This document shows positions 25,366 through 35,529 of a stretch of DNA of 40,662 nucleotides, piece after piece (position 1 is the stretch's first letter; every line of letters starts with the position of its first letter). A program made the position numbers and the translations under genes. A model generated the notes under the pieces. The model saw nothing but the letters and a program-made list of their open reading frames with translations. It did no database searches and was not told where the DNA came from. The stretch comes from an uncultured Pelagibacteraceae bacterium (lineage in GTDB: Bacteria > Pseudomonadota > Alphaproteobacteria > Pelagibacterales > Pelagibacteraceae): positions 1 through 40,662 of the forward strand of contig CACCLK010000007.1 of NCBI GenBank assembly GCA_902546795.1. Direction: 5' to 3'.

Positions 25366-25866
25366 ATGTGTTTAAAAAAAATTATAATAATAGTTTTTGC
25401 ATTATCGTGTACTATTAATGTATACGCATCAAATCCTAAATCTACTGGAAAATATAAAAATTGGGAAAGTTTTAAGATAGACACTGATAAAGGTAAAATT
25501 TGTTTTGCACAAACTAAACCAGTTAAAAGAGCACCTGGCGCGATCAAAAGAGGCGAGTCTAGACTTTTTGTAACCTTTAGACCAAATGAGAATATAAGGG
25601 ATGAGGTAAGCGTAACAAGTGGGCATGTTTATAAGTCGTCTTCTGTTACTGCTAAGTCGGGTAAAAATAATTTTTCTTTATTTTCACAAAGTAATTTTGC
25701 TTGGCTTCTTGATGAAAAAGAAGAGCAGAAATTTATTAAAGTTATGAAAAGGGCTACAAATCTTATGATTATTGGCGGAACAAAAGATGGTGCTCAAACG
25801 ACTGATCACTATTCAATGATGGGTTTCACAAAAGCATACAACACCGCCAAAAAAACTTGCGGATAA
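25366..25866 (+). CDS. Exported IalB-like protein (invasion associated locus B family)
   Basis: Probable periplasmic protein of 166 aa. A signal peptide covers about residues 1-21 (LSCTINVYA then SNPKS). The remainder matches the IalB-like pattern: WESFKIDTDKGKICFAQTKP, RLFVTFRPNENIRDEVSV, FAWLLDEKEEQKFIKVMKRA and a C-terminal cysteine. The two mature cysteines could form a disulfide. The role outside pathogens is not known. The stop shares one base with the argG start (TAATG), so it is translationally coupled to argG, an odd pairing. Confidence 0.72.
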   Translation: MCLKKIIIIVFALSCTINVYASNPKSTGKYKNWESFKIDTDKGKICFAQTKPVKRAPGAIKRGESRLFVTFRPNENIRDEVSVTSGHVYKSSSVTAKSGKNNFSLFSQSNFAWLLDEKEEQKFIKVMKRATNLMIIGGTKDGAQTTDHYSMMGFTKAYNTAKKTCG

Positions 25867-27047
25867 TGAAAAAAATAGTTCTTGCTTATTCTGGTGGACT
25901 AGACACGTCAATAATTCTCAAATGGTTACAAAAAAACTTTAAAGCAGAAGTGATAGCTTACACGGCTGACATTGGTCAAAAAATAAATAGAAAAAAAATT
26001 ATTCAGAATGCAAAAAAACTTGGTGTAAAAAAAATAATAATCGAGAATTTAAAAAACACCTTTGTAAAAGAGTATATTTTTCCAATGCTTAGAGCGCATG
26101 CTATGTATGAGGGAAAATATTTGCTTGGAACTTCGATAGCGAGACCTTTAATAGGAAAAAGACAAATTGCTGTAGCAAAAAAATTTAAAGCTTTTGCAGT
26201 GTCACACGGATCTACAGGCAAAGGAAACGATCAAATTAGATTTGAATTAGCTTACTCTTTTTTTGGAAAAAAAATTAAGATAATCTCACCATGGAGAATA
26301 TGGAAATTGCAGTCTAGAACAGATTTAATAAAATATGCAAAGGACAACAAAATACCTATTCCTAAAGATAAAAAAGGATCACCGCCTTTTTCAGTGGACG
26401 ATAATATCTTTCACACATCAACTGAGGGAAAGATTTTGGAAAACCCAAGAAATAAAGCTCCAGAGCATATTTTTCAAAGAACAGTTTCATTAGAGAGAGC
26501 TCCATCAAAGCCTACAATTGTGAAAATTGGTTTTAAGAATGGTGACCCGATCTCAATAAATAATAAACAACTTAATCCCGAAAAGCTTTTGGAAAAACTT
26601 AATCTTATAGGTGGGAAAAATGGAGTAGGTAGAGTTGACTTAGTAGAAAATAGATTTCTTGGGATTAAATCTAGAGGCGTTTACGAAACGCCTGGAGGTG
26701 AAATTTTATACTTTGCACATAGAGCCATGGAGTCCGTAACATTAGATAAAGAGACTATGCACCAAAAAGAGAGAATTATGCCTATTTACTCCGAACTTGT
26801 TTATAACGGATATTGGTTTTCAAAAAAAAGACTGAAGCTTCAAAAGATAGTAGATAAAAAAAGAAACTTGGTGACGGGACAAGTTGTCCTAAAAATTTTT
26901 AAGGGTAATGTGATAATTTTGTCTAGAATTACAAACAATAAAGCTTATTCTATGAAAAAAGTATCATTTGAGGAAAACAAAACTTTTAAGAAAAGAAAAG
27001 TAGAAAATTTTATAAGATTTCACTCTAAACAGTTAAATAAAAGCTAA
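25866..27047 (+). CDS. argG: Argininosuccinate synthase
   Basis: Joins citrulline and aspartate using ATP in arginine synthesis; cytoplasmic. The ATP pyrophosphatase loop is AYSGGLDTSIILKWL near the N terminus, with SHGSTGKGNDQIRFE in the citrulline/aspartate site and ENRFLGIKSRGVYETPGG. I start at the ATG at 25866 (393 aa) instead of the track's TTG at 25857, because of the TAATG junction with the upstream gene. Length is normal. Confidence 0.96.
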   Translation: MKKIVLAYSGGLDTSIILKWLQKNFKAEVIAYTADIGQKINRKKIIQNAKKLGVKKIIIENLKNTFVKEYIFPMLRAHAMYEGKYLLGTSIARPLIGKRQIAVAKKFKAFAVSHGSTGKGNDQIRFELAYSFFGKKIKIISPWRIWKLQSRTDLIKYAKDNKIPIPKDKKGSPPFSVDDNIFHTSTEGKILENPRNKAPEHIFQRTVSLERAPSKPTIVKIGFKNGDPISINNKQLNPEKLLEKLNLIGGKNGVGRVDLVENRFLGIKSRGVYETPGGEILYFAHRAMESVTLDKETMHQKERIMPIYSELVYNGYWFSKKRLKLQKIVDKKRNLVTGQVVLKIFKGNVIILSRITNNKAYSMKKVSFEENKTFKKRKVENFIRFHSKQLNKS

Positions 27048-29428: not shown

Positions 29429-29625
29429 AAAAACCACCATGGATATATCGGTATCTTATCATAGCGGCGATTTTAGTTTTGCCTCCATTTTTAAGTGCGC
29501 ATATAGGATCGATTTATCTTGGAACAGATAATGGAATTTTACTAGGTTTTTGTGTTGGTATCCCATGCGTGACTTTCGCAGCATGGAAACTTTATATAGA
29601 CGGATGGAGAGATGATGAGGATTAA
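29425..29625 (+). CDS. 66-aa two-helix membrane protein
   Basis: Small inner-membrane protein with helices around IIAAILVLPPFLSAHIG and ILLGFCVGIPCVTFAAW and an acidic tail DGWRDDED. No ATG start exists; the track start (29365) is itself a TTG lying inside the upstream gene. I favour TTG at 29425, which overlaps the preceding stop as TTGA. The stop overlaps the photolyase-like gene start by one base (TAATG). No family recognised. Confidence 0.65.
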   Translation: MKKPPWIYRYLIIAAILVLPPFLSAHIGSIYLGTDNGILLGFCVGIPCVTFAAWKLYIDGWRDDED

Positions 29626-30758
29626 TGAAATTTAAAATTACAAGAGAGGGAGCTGTAAAAGAACTTGATAATTTTATAGAGACAAATCTCAAAGATTACA
29701 GTTTTAAAAGAAACTTCGATTTTGGACCTAATGATAAGTCGAATGTATCCTGCTTATCTCCTTATATAACACACAGACTAATCACAGAATTTGAAGTAGC
29801 TAAAAAAGTCTTAGGAAAATATTCTTTTCAAAAAGTAGAAAAATTTATCCAAGAAATATTTTGGAGAGTTTACTGGAAGGGTTGGTTAGAACTAAGACCG
29901 CAAGTCTGGACAGATTTTATTGGGGACTTAAAGGATATTAAAGATGATAAAAATTATATGAAAGCTATAAATGGAGAAACGGAAATAAATTGTTTCAACG
30001 ATTGGGTAAGAGAACTTAAAGAAAATAATTATTTACATAATCATACCAGAATGTGGTTTGCTAGTATTTGGATATTTACGTTGAACTTACCTTGGCAAAA
30101 AGGTGCAGAATTCTTTATGAAGCATTTATTTGATGGTGATGCCGCATCTAACACATTAAGTTGGAGATGGGTTGCTGGCCTTCAAACTAAAGGAAAGCAC
30201 TATGTTGCTCAATCATGGAATATAAGCAAGTTCACTAACAATAAATATAATAATGTAAAACTAAATGAAAACGCTTTGCCTATAATAGATAAAAGAGAAT
30301 ATAAATTAAATCCACTTAATTTTGTTACAGAAGATAATTCAAATGAAAATTTATTAGTTTTTGAGAATGAATTAAACTTAGAAAATAAAAATTTAAAAAA
30401 ATATAAAAATATTTATTTGGTTTTACTAAGTAATGATGTTCGGAAGCTAAAACTTGAGCAGAAAGTGCTAGACTATAAATCACAGCTAGCTAATGATCAA
30501 AAAAAGAGATTAGATCAAATACAAATAATCGATGAAGCTGAATTCCAACCTGTAGTAGAAAAAATAAAATCTTTTGATGTAATTTACCCTTGTATTGGAG
30601 AAAATAATTCTTATCTAAATAGTATGAGAAAAAAACAAAATTTAAATTTAAACTTTGTTTTAAAAGATGAAGATAAATTCTCTTGGCAATTTTCAAATAA
30701 AGGTTATTTCAATTTTAAAAACAATATTCCTAAAATATTAAGTAAGCTAAATGTTTGA
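29625..30758 (+). CDS. Photolyase/cryptochrome-like FAD-domain protein lacking the N-terminal antenna domain
   Basis: The N-terminal 210 residues match the FAD-binding helical domain of DNA photolyases: SCLSPYITHRLIT (42-54), IQEIFWRVYWKGWLELRP (75-91), HNHTRMWFASIWIF, and DGDAASNTLSWRWVAGLQ (170-187). A normal photolyase has an alpha/beta antenna domain of about 130 residues before this; here the FAD domain begins at residue 1. The C-terminal part (about 240-377) has alternating strands and helices ending WQFSNKGYFNFKNNIPKIL, which might be a displaced Rossmann domain. Repair or sensor role is unknown. It overlaps the next gene by eight bases. Confidence 0.8.
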   Translation: MKFKITREGAVKELDNFIETNLKDYSFKRNFDFGPNDKSNVSCLSPYITHRLITEFEVAKKVLGKYSFQKVEKFIQEIFWRVYWKGWLELRPQVWTDFIGDLKDIKDDKNYMKAINGETEINCFNDWVRELKENNYLHNHTRMWFASIWIFTLNLPWQKGAEFFMKHLFDGDAASNTLSWRWVAGLQTKGKHYVAQSWNISKFTNNKYNNVKLNENALPIIDKREYKLNPLNFVTEDNSNENLLVFENELNLENKNLKKYKNIYLVLLSNDVRKLKLEQKVLDYKSQLANDQKKRLDQIQIIDEAEFQPVVEKIKSFDVIYPCIGENNSYLNSMRKKQNLNLNFVLKDEDKFSWQFSNKGYFNFKNNIPKILSKLNV

Positions 30759-31653
30759 AAACATATTAAAAAATCAAGATAAGATAGATCAAAAAAAATT
30801 TCATGCTTTTTTTATAGACTACTTATCGCAAAATAAAATTACTTTGACAAATTTTTGGGATCCAAAAGACTATGATTTAAAAAATTGTAAGCCATATATA
30901 TATTTCAACAAATTGAAGCAAAACAAAGCATCTAAAAGTAATTTGAGCATTATATTAAGCAAAATATATGAGCGGTATTTAGAATTTTTAGAAAATAATA
31001 AAATTATTAAACCAGACGATAAAAAAATTGAAAATGTTTTTATAAGCCGAGTTGATGAATTAGACCGAATTAAGTCATTTGATGCACTCTGGTTTCAATT
31101 TGCAACAGATCCTAATAAAACTTTAAAAGATGAAATTGAATGGGAATATTATTATTCAGATTTAAGACACAATATCCTTAAAATTTGTAATAAAAAAAAT
31201 TGGGATGAATTCAGTACAATTACCTTTCAGCCTCATATTCATAGAATCTTTCTTGCTGATTATTATGATATTGATAAAAAAAGTGACATTGAATCATTCG
31301 CACAAATATGTACACAAATTGATCACCTTTTGAACATTGATGGAAAGAAGTTCAAGGATACTGGAGATGCTATAAAGGGTAAATTTAAAGCTCAAACCGA
31401 ATTTGAAAAAATAAAGTCAAATATTTATTTAAAACAATCATTCTTAACACCTGTTTACCAACAAATTCCACAAACGAAAATTATCAGAATTATTATTTAT
31501 GTAGTCTACAGACTTTTTCTAGGAAGAAAAAGAAAGCTAAAAGATTATGTATTAGAAAATGAGAATAAAGCTTTAGATAATTTGGATATTGATCCTAAAA
31601 GCAAAACAAAATTTATCAAACAGTTTTTAAAATCAACTAATTTTACTATCTAA
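30751..31653 (+). CDS. Unknown 300-aa protein coupled to the photolyase-like gene
   Basis: I do not recognise this protein. It is soluble, very lysine/asparagine-rich and mainly helical, with a hydrophobic patch near residues 245-260 (IIRIIIYVVYRLFLG) that may be one membrane-associated helix. Notable segments are SFDALWFQFATDPNK and ITFQPHIHRIFLADYYDI. The start overlaps the photolyase-like gene by eight bases, so the two are translationally coupled and probably share a process. Codon use resembles its upstream neighbours. Confidence 0.7.
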   Translation: MFENILKNQDKIDQKKFHAFFIDYLSQNKITLTNFWDPKDYDLKNCKPYIYFNKLKQNKASKSNLSIILSKIYERYLEFLENNKIIKPDDKKIENVFISRVDELDRIKSFDALWFQFATDPNKTLKDEIEWEYYYSDLRHNILKICNKKNWDEFSTITFQPHIHRIFLADYYDIDKKSDIESFAQICTQIDHLLNIDGKKFKDTGDAIKGKFKAQTEFEKIKSNIYLKQSFLTPVYQQIPQTKIIRIIIYVVYRLFLGRKRKLKDYVLENENKALDNLDIDPKSKTKFIKQFLKSTNFTI

Positions 31654-31692
31654 GATTCACTTAATTTTTCGATTAAGTCTAATTCAGTCCTG

Positions 31693-31719
31693 ATTAAGAT
31701 AAATTAAGATAATTAAGAT
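31693..31719 (+). repeat. Three direct ATTAAGAT repeats upstream of the nuclease cassette
   Basis: ATTAAGAT occurs at 31693-31700, 31703-31710 and 31712-31719, spaced 10 and 9 bases apart, about one helix turn. A related ATTAAGTC at 31672 forms the right arm of a small hairpin (ACTTAAT 31659-31665 / ATTAAGT 31672-31678). Regular spacing suggests a protein-binding array or operator for the downstream genes; a chance AT-rich repeat is possible. Confidence 0.45.
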
Positions 31720-31756
31720 TTTTTACTCTCAAAACTCTGATTTAGTTTTTCCAATA

Positions 31757-31796
31757 CTTGATTTCTATAAATTTATAGAAATGTCAGGTTTTTTTT
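31757..31796 (+). terminator. Intrinsic terminator after the photolyase-like operon
   Basis: A perfect 20-base palindrome TTTCTATAAATTTATAGAAA (31762-31781) is extended by CTTGA (31757-31761) pairing with TCAGG (31784-31788, one G-T pair, TG bulge) and followed by eight Ts (31789-31796). This is a strong rho-independent terminator on the plus strand and separates the photolyase operon from the nuclease cassette. Confidence 0.7.
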
Positions 31797-31820
31797 AAAA
31801 ACTAATAAAAGGAGTTATTT

Positions 31821-32147
31821 ATGAAAAACATAAATACTACTACGGCTAAAAAGCCTCTATTGATTGAAAATAAGAAGAAAATAGAGGAAAAGTTCTTGGA
31901 TGTTTACGCTTGTTCGATAAACGTTTCACCTCAGGAATATAAAGCTGTAGATGAGTGGACACGTAGACTGTTCTTAAAAGCAGAGAAGTGTTTCACTCTT
32001 AAAAAGGGGTTGAATGCTATGGCAAATGTAGCTTTAACACCACCGCTAGTTATAGAGAAACAGGGTGATATTAAAAAATCATACCAGATCTATGTAATTG
32101 GTGTTTACGTCGAAGAAGTCATAAAACGGGAGGTGTTCAATGCCTAA
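31821..32147 (+). CDS. Unknown 108-aa protein, first gene of the nuclease cassette
   Basis: Small soluble protein of unrecognised family. The first 25 residues are lysine/threonine-rich; the rest looks like a helical region (EYKAVDEWTRRLFLKAEKCF, LKKGLNAMANVAL) followed by beta/helix KSYQIYVIGVYVEEVIKREV. A good ribosome-binding site (AAAGGAG) precedes the ATG by seven bases. Its stop overlaps the next gene's start by eight bases. It may be a DNA-binding or regulatory partner of the nucleases, which is only a guess from position. Confidence 0.75.
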   Translation: MKNINTTTAKKPLLIENKKKIEEKFLDVYACSINVSPQEYKAVDEWTRRLFLKAEKCFTLKKGLNAMANVALTPPLVIEKQGDIKKSYQIYVIGVYVEEVIKREVFNA

Positions 32148-32865
32148 AGATAATTGGACCTCTTGGTGTAGGTCTTCACACTTTCGTTTAGGTCATGCAA
32201 GTGTAACAATTCATAAAGATGGTATTTCTCTAAATGCCTCTTTAAATAAAATTGTTGATGTTGCTAAGTACCAAAACGTAAGAATTGATCTTAATCATCC
32301 TGATCCAGATTTAGCTACTAAAATAAAGTGTGAGCTAAACAATGATGAGGAGGATAAAAATAACTTCAAGATTATAAGAGCGCGTCATGTAGAAGATAAA
32401 AGACGCGGCTTTATTGCTTGTAGGAATTTGATTGATGGTCAACCCAAGTTGAAAAAGATCGGTCAAAAATTAAGGTCAGCAAGAAGAATAGAAGTAAAAG
32501 AATACGGAAAGGATAAATCATCTTTTACTTTTGATTTGCAGCCTGTCTGTGAATTATCAGTTGCTAATGCAGCTGATCTACCAGCTAAAGGTGGAATTTA
32601 CAGATACGTAGATAAATCAGAAATTGTTTACTACGGTAGAGCAAAGAATATCAAACTAAGGGCGAGAGACTCAATTAGGGATAATTGGGTTTACGACAAA
32701 ATTGAATATTCTTTGATCGATAGTGAGAGTGAGCAGGTTTTTTGGGAGTCTAAATTTTTAGATGAGTTTAAAGCCTCAAACAATCGTTTGCCTAGATACA
32801 ATCAATTATCTGGAACATCTATCATAAAACTTGAAAGTAGGAGGTCGGATGAGTCAGTTATTTAA
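32140..32865 (+). CDS. GIY-YIG domain nuclease with unknown N-terminal domain
   Basis: The C-terminal part (about 147-225) is a GIY-YIG nuclease: GIY at 152-154, YYG at 164-166, arginines in KLRAR (174, 176), the metal-binding Glu203 in FWESKF, and Asn221 in PRYNQLSG. The first 145 residues form an unrecognised domain with likely beta strands (HASVTIHKDGISLN, RIEVKEY, SFTFDLQP), perhaps for nucleic-acid binding. GGGAGGT precedes the ATG. The 3' end overlaps the PD-(D/E)XK gene by 17 bases. Arginine is often CGN here, while the neighbours use mainly AGA. Confidence 0.8.
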   Translation: MPKDNWTSWCRSSHFRLGHASVTIHKDGISLNASLNKIVDVAKYQNVRIDLNHPDPDLATKIKCELNNDEEDKNNFKIIRARHVEDKRRGFIACRNLIDGQPKLKKIGQKLRSARRIEVKEYGKDKSSFTFDLQPVCELSVANAADLPAKGGIYRYVDKSEIVYYGRAKNIKLRARDSIRDNWVYDKIEYSLIDSESEQVFWESKFLDEFKASNNRLPRYNQLSGTSIIKLESRRSDESVI

Positions 32866-33553
32866 ACTTGGACCATCAGACTTTGCTTTTTTGTGGAGTG
32901 AGTGTAAACGTTGCTTCTACTTGAAGGTAAAGCATAACCACCAACGTCCTCGAAGTATTATGCCTAAGATTTTCATCTCTATTGATGGTCTTATGAAAGA
33001 TTACTTCGAGCAAAAGTCACCAAAGGATATAGACAATAGTCTAAATGACGGTCATGTTGAATTTGGTGACAGGTGGATACAATCTAAACCTTACTTAGAT
33101 AAAAAAACTGGAAACAGATGTTTTATAAAAGGTAAAACAGATACTGTTCTTAGCTTTAACGATAACAGTTATGGTATTGTTGATTTTAAGACATCAAGTG
33201 TTAAAGATGACAATGTAGCAAAATATTCAAGACAACTACATGCATATACCTTAGCACTTGAAAATGCAGCACCTGGTAAACCTTCATTAAAACCAATTTC
33301 AAAGTTAGGTTTATTTATTGTTGAGCCAAAAAAACTCATCAAAAGTGAGAAAGATATTTACTCATTTGAGAATGAAGTTAGTTGGCAGGAAATTCAAAGA
33401 GATGACGAAGCATTTTTTGAATTCCTAAGAGAGGTAATGGCGGTGTTGTCTAGTGACAAGACACCTGCAGCTAATCCTTTCTGTTCACACTGTGATTATC
33501 TGAAGAGAAGTCAGGTAGATTTTGATAACATAAAAAATAGGATTGCATCCTAA
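32849..33553 (+). CDS. Cas4/RecB-like PD-(D/E)XK nuclease with four cysteines
   Basis: Start at the ATG at 32849 (234 aa), preceded by AGGAGG; the track start at 32831 is not supported. Nuclease motifs are GKTD (Asp98), VDFKTSS (Asp112, Lys114) and the RecB-type QxxxY in RQLHAY (Gln129, Tyr133). Cysteines come as CKRC (19, 22) and CSHC (212, 215), enclosing the nuclease core as in iron-sulfur Cas4/AddB proteins, though with a 2+2 rather than 1+3 spacing. No CRISPR array or cas1/cas2 is present, so a phage-type or repair exonuclease is more likely. Confidence 0.82.
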   Translation: MSQLFKLGPSDFAFLWSECKRCFYLKVKHNHQRPRSIMPKIFISIDGLMKDYFEQKSPKDIDNSLNDGHVEFGDRWIQSKPYLDKKTGNRCFIKGKTDTVLSFNDNSYGIVDFKTSSVKDDNVAKYSRQLHAYTLALENAAPGKPSLKPISKLGLFIVEPKKLIKSEKDIYSFENEVSWQEIQRDDEAFFEFLREVMAVLSSDKTPAANPFCSHCDYLKRSQVDFDNIKNRIAS

Positions 33554-33557
33554 ATTT

Positions 33558-33579
33558 TTGGGGCGCGAAAGCGCCCCAA
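33558..33579. terminator. GC-rich GAAA-tetraloop hairpin between convergent genes
   Basis: TTGGGGCGC (33558-33566) pairs perfectly with GCGCCCCAA (33571-33579) around a GAAA loop, between the stop of the nuclease gene (33553) and the stop of the DUF2256 gene (33584). Few stems this GC-rich occur elsewhere in the window. There is no T tract after the stem on the plus strand, and an A tract follows on the minus strand, so it is not a canonical intrinsic terminator; it may stabilise 3' ends or act with another factor. The GAAA loop favours the plus strand. Confidence 0.55.
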
Positions 33580-33583
33580 CTAA

Positions 33584-33709
33584 TCATTTAGAGGAACACC
33601 TCTTAGAACAATATTTTACTTTATCCCAATTTAGTCTCCATTTTTTTCTCCAACTAAAAGGCTTATTGCAAACTGGACAAGTTTTTTTTGGCAAATCAGT
33701 TTTTTTCAT
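33584..33709 (-). CDS. 41-aa DUF2256 zinc-ribbon protein (not in ORF track)
   Basis: Missed by the ORF track; the track's plus ORF at 33543-33773 is its shadow. From the ATG at 33709 it reads MKKTDLPKKTCPVCNKPFSW, then RKKWRLNWDKVKYCSKRC, ending SSK. Four cysteines (CPVC and CSKRC) make a small zinc ribbon; the PFSWRKKW...W..VKYCS pattern is the DUF2256 signature. DUF2256 genes are often beside cryptochrome/photolyase genes, as here. It overlaps the DCC-protein gene by 14 bases. Confidence 0.88.
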   Translation of the reverse strand: MKKTDLPKKTCPVCNKPFSWRKKWRLNWDKVKYCSKRCSSK

Positions 33710-34055
33710 TGTTCAGAAGGTGTTTATTTTTTATAAACAGGAAATACGCTGCAATCTCATAAAAAATATTTAATATGAGAAACAGAGGTTTAATTTTAAA
33801 TATCTTATATAAAAAATTATATTTAGGAACATTCTTCCAAATTATTAAAAAAGACTCCGCCCCATCAATTACCTTACCATCTTGTATGACATGCATTCTT
33901 CTAAGAAGTTCTTTGTATGATTTTGAAGTAATTTTTTGAGCTTCTTCATTATTGGTTACGTCTATCCACTCAACAGTGTTATCACTATGTTTTTTGTAAT
34001 GATTGATCTCAGCTCTGCAAATATTACATGAATTATTAAAAAAAACTTTAACCAT
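33696..34055 (-). CDS. DCC-family thiol-disulfide oxidoreductase-like protein (DUF393)
   Basis: 119-aa thioredoxin-like protein. The motif FFNNSCNICRAEINHYKKH contains the family CxxC (Cys10, Cys13), and RMHVIQDGKVIDGAESFLIIW follows. A hydrophobic C-terminal region (FLILNIFYEIAAYFLFI) may associate with membrane. The family is often near photolyase and DUF2256 genes. It overlaps the cryptochrome gene by eight bases, which suggests one transcript cryptochrome / DCC / DUF2256. Confidence 0.86.
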   Translation of the reverse strand: MVKVFFNNSCNICRAEINHYKKHSDNTVEWIDVTNNEEAQKITSKSYKELLRRMHVIQDGKVIDGAESFLIIWKNVPKYNFLYKIFKIKPLFLILNIFYEIAAYFLFIKNKHLLNNEKN

Positions 34056-35529
34056 TAGTATTTTCTTTTATAAAATTATTTGCAGCTTTGAAAATTCTTG
34101 TTTTTCTCTCTTTATTCATTTTTTCAGAAACTCTTACCATCATTGCAAGACGAGGATTTTTTAAAAAAAACTTTTTGTGCCGATCTATAAATTTCCAATA
34201 TAATCCATCCATAACATCACACCATGGACCTTTCTTAAAGTGCATCATCTTTAAAAAATAACTTGAACCACAGATATAAGGTTTTGTGGCAAATATTCCA
34301 CCATCACTAAATAATCCCATTCCATAAACATTTGGTGCCATTACCCAGTCAGATGAGTCTACAAACATTTCCATGAACCATTTGTAAACTTGTTTAGGAT
34401 TTATCTCACAAAGATTCATTATATTAGCCAATATCATCAATCTCTCAATGTGATGAGACCATCCGTAATTTTTAGCATTATTAATTGCATGATCAAGAGG
34501 ATCTAACCCTGTGGTGCCCTCATACCAAGATTTTTTCATCTTTCGATTATGATTAAAAAAATTTGTTTTTTCTAATCTTTGATCGTAGTTTTGATAGATG
34601 CCTCTCATAAATTCTCTCCAACCAATAATTTGTCTTATGTAACCTTCTAAAGAATTTAAAGGTACCTTGTTTTCAATTTTTTTTAACTTAGAAATAATTT
34701 CTTCAGGCGTAATCAATCCTAGGTTTATGAGTGGGCTTAGAGCGCTGTGAAAAACAGTGTTGGATTTATCAGTCACAGCATCTTCGTAATCCCCAAATAA
34801 TTTTATTCTCTCTTTTAAAAATTCATCTAACCATTTATTTGCATCTTTCCTATTTGTTGGGAACCAAAATTTGTCTGTGTTTCCTGGGTGATCTTTAAAG
34901 TTAGAATTTATAAATTTTTTTAAAACAGAAGTGTCTTTTGTATCTTTTACTTTAGATATTTGAGGAATTTTAATTGAATTGGGAAGTTTTTTTCTATTTT
35001 CCTCATCAAAACTCCATTTATTTCCTTTAGGGGTTCCATTTTTACTCATAAGTAAATTCATTTTTATTCGGACTATTTTATAAAAGTTAGCCATAAAAGG
35101 TCTTTTATTTTTTGATAGATAGTTTTTAAACTCTTCTCTATCCATTAAAAACATTGGAGATTTAATTTGATTTATTTTTAAAGAATTCTTTTTACAAAAA
35201 CTCAATATTTTTTTTTCAAATAACTTATCTTCTATTTCAAAAAAAGAAACTTCTTTTACCTTTTTTTCTTTAATAATTTTTGAGAGTTTTTTTTCATAAG
35301 GAATTTTAAAATCTTTATTTACATCTTTATAAATTAAATTAAAATTTTTAGATTTCAGCTCATCTCTGAAAGATCTCATAGAAGAGAGAAAAAGAAGTAT
35401 CTTTAATTTATGATGTTTCTCAAAAGTGCAAAGATCAAAATCCTCTGCCATAAAGAAAATATGATCCTTATATTTGTTAAAATATGTAGGATTAAATAAC
35501 TGATTTCCTAAAATTAAAAAAAGTTTCAT
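34048..35529 (-). CDS. Cryptochrome/photolyase-related protein (CryPro/FeS-BCP type) lacking CxxC cluster ligands
   Basis: 493-aa member of the bacterial FeS-BCP group, whose relatives such as Agrobacterium PhrB repair (6-4) photoproducts. Seen are the N-terminal LILGNQLF, LEGYIRQIIGWREFMRGIY, the WSHHIERLMILANIMNLCEI helix, and DWVMAPNVYGMGLFSDGG with KPYICGSSYFLKM. PhrB uses four cysteines for a 4Fe-4S cluster; here the first (Cys374) and a late one (Cys437) are present, but the YC..C pair is replaced by HFKKG in a shortened loop. Cys420 is nearby. Cluster loss or rearrangement is likely. Confidence 0.9.
   Translation of the reverse strand: MKLFLILGNQLFNPTYFNKYKDHIFFMAEDFDLCTFEKHHKLKILLFLSSMRSFRDELKSKNFNLIYKDVNKDFKIPYEKKLSKIIKEKKVKEVSFFEIEDKLFEKKILSFCKKNSLKINQIKSPMFLMDREEFKNYLSKNKRPFMANFYKIVRIKMNLLMSKNGTPKGNKWSFDEENRKKLPNSIKIPQISKVKDTKDTSVLKKFINSNFKDHPGNTDKFWFPTNRKDANKWLDEFLKERIKLFGDYEDAVTDKSNTVFHSALSPLINLGLITPEEIISKLKKIENKVPLNSLEGYIRQIIGWREFMRGIYQNYDQRLEKTNFFNHNRKMKKSWYEGTTGLDPLDHAINNAKNYGWSHHIERLMILANIMNLCEINPKQVYKWFMEMFVDSSDWVMAPNVYGMGLFSDGGIFATKPYICGSSYFLKMMHFKKGPWCDVMDGLYWKFIDRHKKFFLKNPRLAMMVRVSEKMNKERKTRIFKAANNFIKENTNG

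Follow-up and report, generated by a model that had tools for sequence, protein, structure and literature searches.

Abundant pelagiphages infect SAR11 bacteria, which count among the ocean's commonest cells and have very small genomes. In Type I restriction-modification, nuclease machinery that stays constant works with a specificity subunit that can be exchanged, and the seg genes of phage T4 are free-standing homing endonuclease genes of the GIY-YIG type. Here, we analysed a contig of an uncultured Pelagibacteraceae bacterium (40,662 nucleotides, the whole of which we call the window), in which an initial annotation had noted a unit of three overlapping plus-strand genes encoding a 108-aa protein (S), a GIY-YIG nuclease (GIY) and a Cas4-like PD-(D/E)XK nuclease (PDX). 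We found that these genes are the constant part of a four-gene cassette, which in addition contains a first gene (X) and a leader between X and S, and our main finding is the exchange of X against a background of constant nucleases. The cassette has the appearance of a nuclease system that has not been described before and is possibly directed against viruses; the titles and abstracts of the literature on SAR11 with GIY-YIG nucleases, homing endonucleases or anti-phage islands contained nothing describing it.

The cassette lies on the plus strand and begins with X (30751..31653), a hypervariable orphan of 300 amino acids. The start of X overlaps the stop codon of the upstream photolyase/cryptochrome-family gene phr (29625..30758, plus strand; PF03441, E=2e-16), and X has no Shine-Dalgarno (SD) sequence and a GC content of 0.247. 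After the intergenic leader (31654..31820), which has an AT-rich fold and a 22-bp palindrome (31761-31782), come the three genes originally noted, which do overlap: S (31821..32147), GIY (32140..32865, 241 aa, with the C-terminal catalytic domain at residues ~144-226) and PDX (32849..33553 from its ATG, 234 aa, PF12705). Their strong SD sequences (AAAGGAG, GGGAGG and AGGAGG, respectively) are as described, and any SD-like core is present in only 5 of the 45 open reading frames of the window. The claim of unusual composition held for codon adaptation, which is the lowest of all window genes in S and in the 7th and 5th percentiles in GIY and PDX, and for GC, which is raised in the trio (0.34-0.36 vs 0.31), but the CGN arginine codons were only mildly enriched (9/33 vs 46/362, a modest excess). 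As had been proposed, a GC-rich hairpin with a 9-bp stem and a GAAA loop (33558..33579, plus strand; -19 kcal/mol, z -5.3) closes the cassette. It is terminator- or stability-like and has no U-tract after it; it is identical in the related cassette L169 described below, and a hairpin of different sequence occupies the same position in L170-L172 and L175-L177. A terminator that had been placed upstream of the trio was unsupported, and the gap there is the structured leader. To the right, a reading frame on the minus strand (33584..33709) encodes a 41-aa small protein which we take to be DUF2256-like, and beyond it lie, by the Pfam matches of the neighbours, DCC1-like and DPRP photolyase-related genes (33696-35529, minus strand).

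Comparison with congeners defined the insert. The phr and DUF2256 genes are convergent and ~20 bp apart in 26 of 29 congener loci, and the site is likewise empty in 17 of 18 further loci (L084 and L085 excluded), making 43 congeners altogether. In the window, the stretch from 30746 to ~33580 lies between these two genes. Since the flanks are ~20 bp apart in 43 congeners, the whole 2.8 kb, X included, is the insert. The three-gene unit was rejected on this empty-site comparison: the trio is real, but X, which had been missed, is also inside the insert. Precise insertion at a conserved site that is empty in relatives was found here and at the mnmE-mnmG site described below. In L169 (AG-914-O19, Pelagibacteraceae), the cassette occupies the identical phr-DUF2256 site, and the flanking DNA is 95% identical to that of the window just left of the junction and 86-91% identical to the right; since the cassette stands at the identical site with similar flanks, an assembly chimera is unlikely. 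No integrase or methyltransferase is encoded within the insert. Two congeners, G044 (L084 2495-5107) and G089 (L085 3254-5863), carry an ~870-aa gene at the same point, which shows that the junction takes other inserts too; the L084 protein has GDSL lipase, acyltransferase and weak cNMP-binding domains.

A scan with a PDX alignment identified nine further Pelagibacteraceae records (L169-L177) with the gene order X-S-GIY-PDX. All nine cassettes lie in the vicinity of photolyase genes: between phr and DUF2256, next to DPRP, or between phr and a 394-aa gene. Two further four-gene cassettes, in G813 and G817, lie beside or near the counterpart of a 396-aa gene (25857-27047 in the window), with no photolyase gene within the stretches read; the G817 contig begins inside the cassette, and the full X is missing from it. 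The four-gene order (type B) therefore recurs in no fewer than 10 other Pelagibacteraceae genomes, in most cases close to photolyase genes, and an X counterpart precedes S-GIY-PDX in every other type-B cassette whose contig extends far enough. A three-gene version, X-S-GIY (type A), occupies other sites: the mnmE-mnmG gap in six genomes, the gap that separates recA from an outer-membrane efflux gene (OEP), and the vicinity of an SDR gene. The mnmE-mnmG site is otherwise empty, with a gap of 46-69 bp, in 29 of 30 loci. The distribution is patchy, since GIY was detected at E<=1e-10 in 21 of 397 genomes of the family; X and S had no homologue in 150 relatives, and a search of 60 genomes with an X profile found no copy of X outside a cassette. 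The trio is thus neither a set of core genes everywhere nor a combination confined to one locus, and the empty site in 43 congeners, the recurrence, the unusual codons and SD sequences and the intact nucleases bear out the original proposal of a transferred nuclease module.

Some relatives of GIY occur in other settings. A lone 220-aa GIY-YIG variant lacking S and X is present between the SDR gene and a 690-aa gene in L164 (7612-8274) and L165 (7988-8650), the same site at which L154 carries X-S-GIY. In L047 (7655-8431, genome G030), a GIY-YIG relative lies directly beside rmuC without S. No plasmid carriage was found with a GIY query. The phage origin that had been considered possible found no support in the records searched: the trio had no tblastn match in 50,697 phage records, scans of IMG/VR with S, GIY or the type-B PDX returned no relative, and PHROGs gave no match for GIY or S. 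Only one distant PDX relative, with 30% identity and without the N-terminal CxxC cysteines, turned up, on a 316-kb jumbo-phage viral contig (IMGVR_UViG_3300032245_001860, L082 5986-6672).

We compared the proteins between closely related cassettes. The identities of X, S, GIY and PDX were 28, 67, 99 and 99% between the window and L169, 25, 97, 99 and 100% between L173 and L174, 25, 81, 99 and 98% between L171 and L172, and 27, 54, 98 and 99% between L176 and L177. The converse pattern was seen between L170 and L172 (96, 80, 77 and 98%), and between the three-gene cassettes L156 and L157 GIY is 100% identical, S 26% and X 27%. At the DNA level, sequences that are otherwise 92-100% identical drop to ~40% identity across X, or across X, the leader and part of S, and then recover. 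The dN/dS ratio was 0.07-0.26 for S and 0.16 for X in the sole pair in which X could be compared. A block of low identity within near-identical DNA, together with these ratios, means that X was replaced wholesale and is not merely fast-mutating. Taken together, these results show that an unrelated allele takes the place of X, and in some cases of S as well. The cassettes also mix in another way: L175, at the site between the 394-aa gene and phr, has a GIY that is 83-84% identical to those of the DPRP-side cassettes and a PDX that is 85% identical to that of L176, and judging by these identities it is a recombinant.

The constant partners have intact predicted active sites. None of the GIY catalytic residues (Y154, G166, R174, E203 and N221) varies among 23 homologues, and the GIY and YxG motifs together with the catalytic Arg, Glu and Asn place the protein in the GIY-YIG superfamily. 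Its nearest solved relatives by profile are T4 EndoII (E=3e-4) and UvrC (E=6e-4), and its N-terminal ~140 residues form a domain of no known family. PDX matches PF12705 (E=4e-11, 43.7 bits vs a cut-off of 22), and its motif residues D98, D112, K114, Q129 and Y133 (D, DxK, QxxxY) are invariant, as expected of a PD-(D/E)XK nuclease; four cysteines are conserved, two near each end. Against L169, dN/dS was 0.05 for GIY and 0.02 for PDX, and across close pairs it was 0.02-0.10 for both, with GIY reaching 0.13 in L173/L176. Both predicted nucleases have thus kept their catalytic residues and are under strong purifying selection. PDX also matched the PADLOC Cas4 models at E~4e-6. Its identification as a CRISPR Cas4 was rejected: it scored 22.6 bits against an equivalog cut-off of 65, and none of the adjacent genes (photolyase-family, DUF2256, DCC1-like, X, S and GIY) is a cas gene. 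Solitary PDX homologues with 40-50% identity are found in many Anaerolineae/Chloroflexi (L178-L195), which suggests either that such a lineage donated the gene or that the family is old and shared. Many congeners also encode a more distant PD-(D/E)XK protein with ~25-35% identity to PDX, which in L049 (6728-7495) adjoins a glutamyl/glutaminyl-tRNA synthetase gene; the genome of the window has such a distant paralogue on contig C15 (G000:C15:17081-17737, L038).

S and X resemble no described family in the searches performed. S homologues in type-B cassettes share 28-67% identity, and searches of PHROGs, PADLOC and NCBIfam with S were negative, while Pfam gave nothing above the cut-off. Its AlphaFold2 model has a beta-alpha-beta-beta-beta-alpha fold (pLDDT 80.5, with the core above 90), for which Foldseek against the PDB gave only non-significant matches to small domains. 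We regard S as a candidate adaptor or nucleic-acid-binding subunit. The S proteins of type-A and type-B cassettes show the same pattern by eye, but homology between them was rejected because a profile comparison was not significant. X had no Pfam match, and its relatives, like S, had none in PADLOC. An AlphaFold2 model of the L174 protein shows helices in the N-terminal part and, starting near residue 110, a confidently predicted C-terminal alpha/beta domain, and Foldseek found nothing significant for it in the PDB or in a viral library. The X of one three-gene cassette has a weak helix-turn-helix match (E=0.011).

The gap between X and S is ~95-204 bp across cassettes and is structured. In the three-gene cassettes, the loop of a hairpin pairs with a strand immediately before the start codon of S, forming a covarying pseudoknot. 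Eight type-A leaders form 51 of 64 stem cells, with all eight positions changed on both sides; in 5000 permutations of the stem arms none did as well, and the loop-tail complementarity was 219.5 compared to 138.5 ± 13.6 with permuted partners (0/5000). Because the helices were defined by hand, this partner-permutation control, and not automatic prediction, is the evidence for them. RNAalifold on an automatic alignment of the leaders gave no structure, since MAFFT had misaligned the loops. A covariance model found the leader element once per genome and only at cassettes, in 7 of 17 genomes searched. Among the four-gene cassettes, L170-L172 and L175 have 12-13-bp hairpins of differing sequence whose loops pair upstream, ~5-7 s.d. 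above shuffles. Across five families of four-gene leaders the native pairing came out at 41/5000, which is at the limit of the permutation's reach. A single-sequence pseudoknot score reached significance in L170-L172 and L175, was suggestive in L158, L169 and L174, and was not significant for most type-A gaps, L176, L177, L221 and the window. In the window, the AT-rich leader has a fold z of -2.1 (6/200 shuffles as good) with the SD sequence of S in a predicted stem. The pseudoknotted RNA is therefore shown for relatives and not for the window copy. Rfam 15 had no relevant match at the leader, which makes the covarying pseudoknot a candidate for a regulatory RNA outside Rfam, and a viral scan with the leader consensus found nothing. 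The SAR11_0636 sRNA (RF01827) lies ~3.2 kb from GIY at two recA-site cassettes (L156 5042-5131 and L160 4666-4755).

A defence module would account for the patchy presence at hotspots, the intact nucleases under purifying selection, the exchanged partner and the structured leader. We see about an even chance that the cassette is mobile and directs its nucleases against phages, with X as an exchangeable protein for recognition or control, and we consider such an anti-phage role a plausible inference. A system of this kind would move between SAR11 lineages, entering a small number of intergenic hotspots, and its nucleases would defend the cell against incoming DNA, in all likelihood that of phages. 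S, GIY and PDX would form a constant executioner, possibly as a complex, in which S may bridge the nucleases or load them on nucleic acid, GIY would nick or cut, and PDX would degrade from the cut. X would be the exchangeable recognition or control protein that recombination replaces as its putative targets change. The structured mRNA leader before S could occlude the strong ribosome-binding site and so keep the nucleases silent until needed. Since there is no methyltransferase to protect self DNA, conditional activation is expected, and the leader and X could gate it. Possible, though less probable, is a wider form of this proposal: an undescribed class of immunity, here seen only in SAR11, in which a leader RNA controls a constant S-GIY(-PDX) core with a swappable sensor X at core-gene hotspots (recA, mnmE/mnmG and photolyase genes). 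Fixed nucleases with a partner replaced wholesale between near-identical loci are the trace that a phage arms race would leave, which makes the cassette a testable candidate system. Against defence, X and S fit none of the defence-system models, no domain or fold could be recognised in X, the insert contains neither an integrase nor a methyltransferase gene, no known defence genes were identified in the neighbourhood, and PADLOC 2.0 gave generic nuclease-core matches and no known anti-phage system with all its components. In addition, the GIY tree tracks the insertion site, as a homing endonuclease would also give.

The strongest rival to the defence reading, unlikely as we judge it, is a selfish element of the homing type, in which GIY, helped by PDX, would cut the cassette-free site or a rival allele and repair would copy the cassette across; X and S would be cargo or regulators, and X would diverge by co-conversion or to escape cleavage. 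GIY-YIG is a classic homing endonuclease fold, and the insertions are intergenic and clean compared to the empty alleles. The GIY phylogeny follows the site with 5 changes (minimum 4, shuffled mean 14.6; recA-site clade support 99/98), and the nuclease genes of the window and L169 (92-100% DNA identity) are more alike than the genes to their right (86-91%). However, site and genus are confounded in this tree, and several divergent GIY groups share one site, two of them at mnmE-mnmG, so that strictly one clade per site is not quite what is seen in spite of strong clustering; in the S tree, L157 from the recA site groups with the mnmE-site proteins, with weak support (81/99). The mixture of GIY and PDX from different cassette groups in L175 also speaks against homing, and a second nuclease, a hypervariable long open reading frame and a regulated leader are atypical of homing genes. 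If it is a homing element instead, the cassette would be an unusual multi-gene mobile module shaping core loci such as recA and mnmE/mnmG.

A conditional toxin-like or inter-strain conflict cassette, in which the nucleases harm the cell or a competitor and X, with S or the leader RNA, is the allele-specific antidote, would account for a hypervariable partner of a constant nuclease, for the structured RNA next to the nuclease genes and for the joint exchange of X and S in some pairs. We regard it as improbable, since in L173/L174 X is exchanged alone while the other three proteins are 97-100% identical, which means that a cognate X-nuclease pair is not needed, and the family searches run found no toxin family. 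Least probable is a repair or recombination module tied to the photolyase cluster, with a UvrC-like GIY-YIG protein and a RecB-like nuclease acting on damaged DNA. UvrC has the same GIY-YIG fold, and the type-B cassettes of the window and L169-L177 lie among photolyase genes, but those of G813 and G817 have none within the stretches read, the type-A relatives lie at mnmE-mnmG, recA-OEP and the SDR gene, most congeners keep their photolyases without the cassette, and a hypervariable X is unexpected of repair genes.

Like T4 endonuclease II and the N-terminal domain of UvrC, GIY has the core catalytic Tyr, Gly, Arg, Glu and Asn; unlike them, it carries its catalytic domain C-terminally behind a ~140-aa domain absent from Pfam and in the cassettes is always encoded beside S, with no excinuclease or phage context. 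PDX shares the D..DxK..QxxxY motifs and four conserved cysteines with Cas4/RecB-type proteins of PF12705, but it differs from Cas4 in falling far below the equivalog cut-off (22.6 vs 65 bits) among neighbours that are not cas genes, in the spacing of its cysteines as CxxC and CxxC at the two ends, and in having solitary Chloroflexi genes (40-50% identity) as its closest relatives outside cassettes. One type-A homologue of GIY matches PADLOC UzuA over a 45-residue GIY-YIG core (E=0.002); only this nuclease core is shared, the GIY of the window does not match, and neither S nor the relatives of X have a PADLOC match. By analogy with the T4 seg genes, the cassette has a GIY-YIG protein in patchily distributed intergenic insertions, but it is a multi-gene operon with a second nuclease, a hypervariable partner and an RNA leader. 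The analogy with Type I restriction-modification lies in the pairing of constant nucleases with an exchangeable subunit; the cassette differs in having no methyltransferase, ATPase or TRD-type HsdS, and its exchangeable protein X matches no Pfam or PADLOC family.
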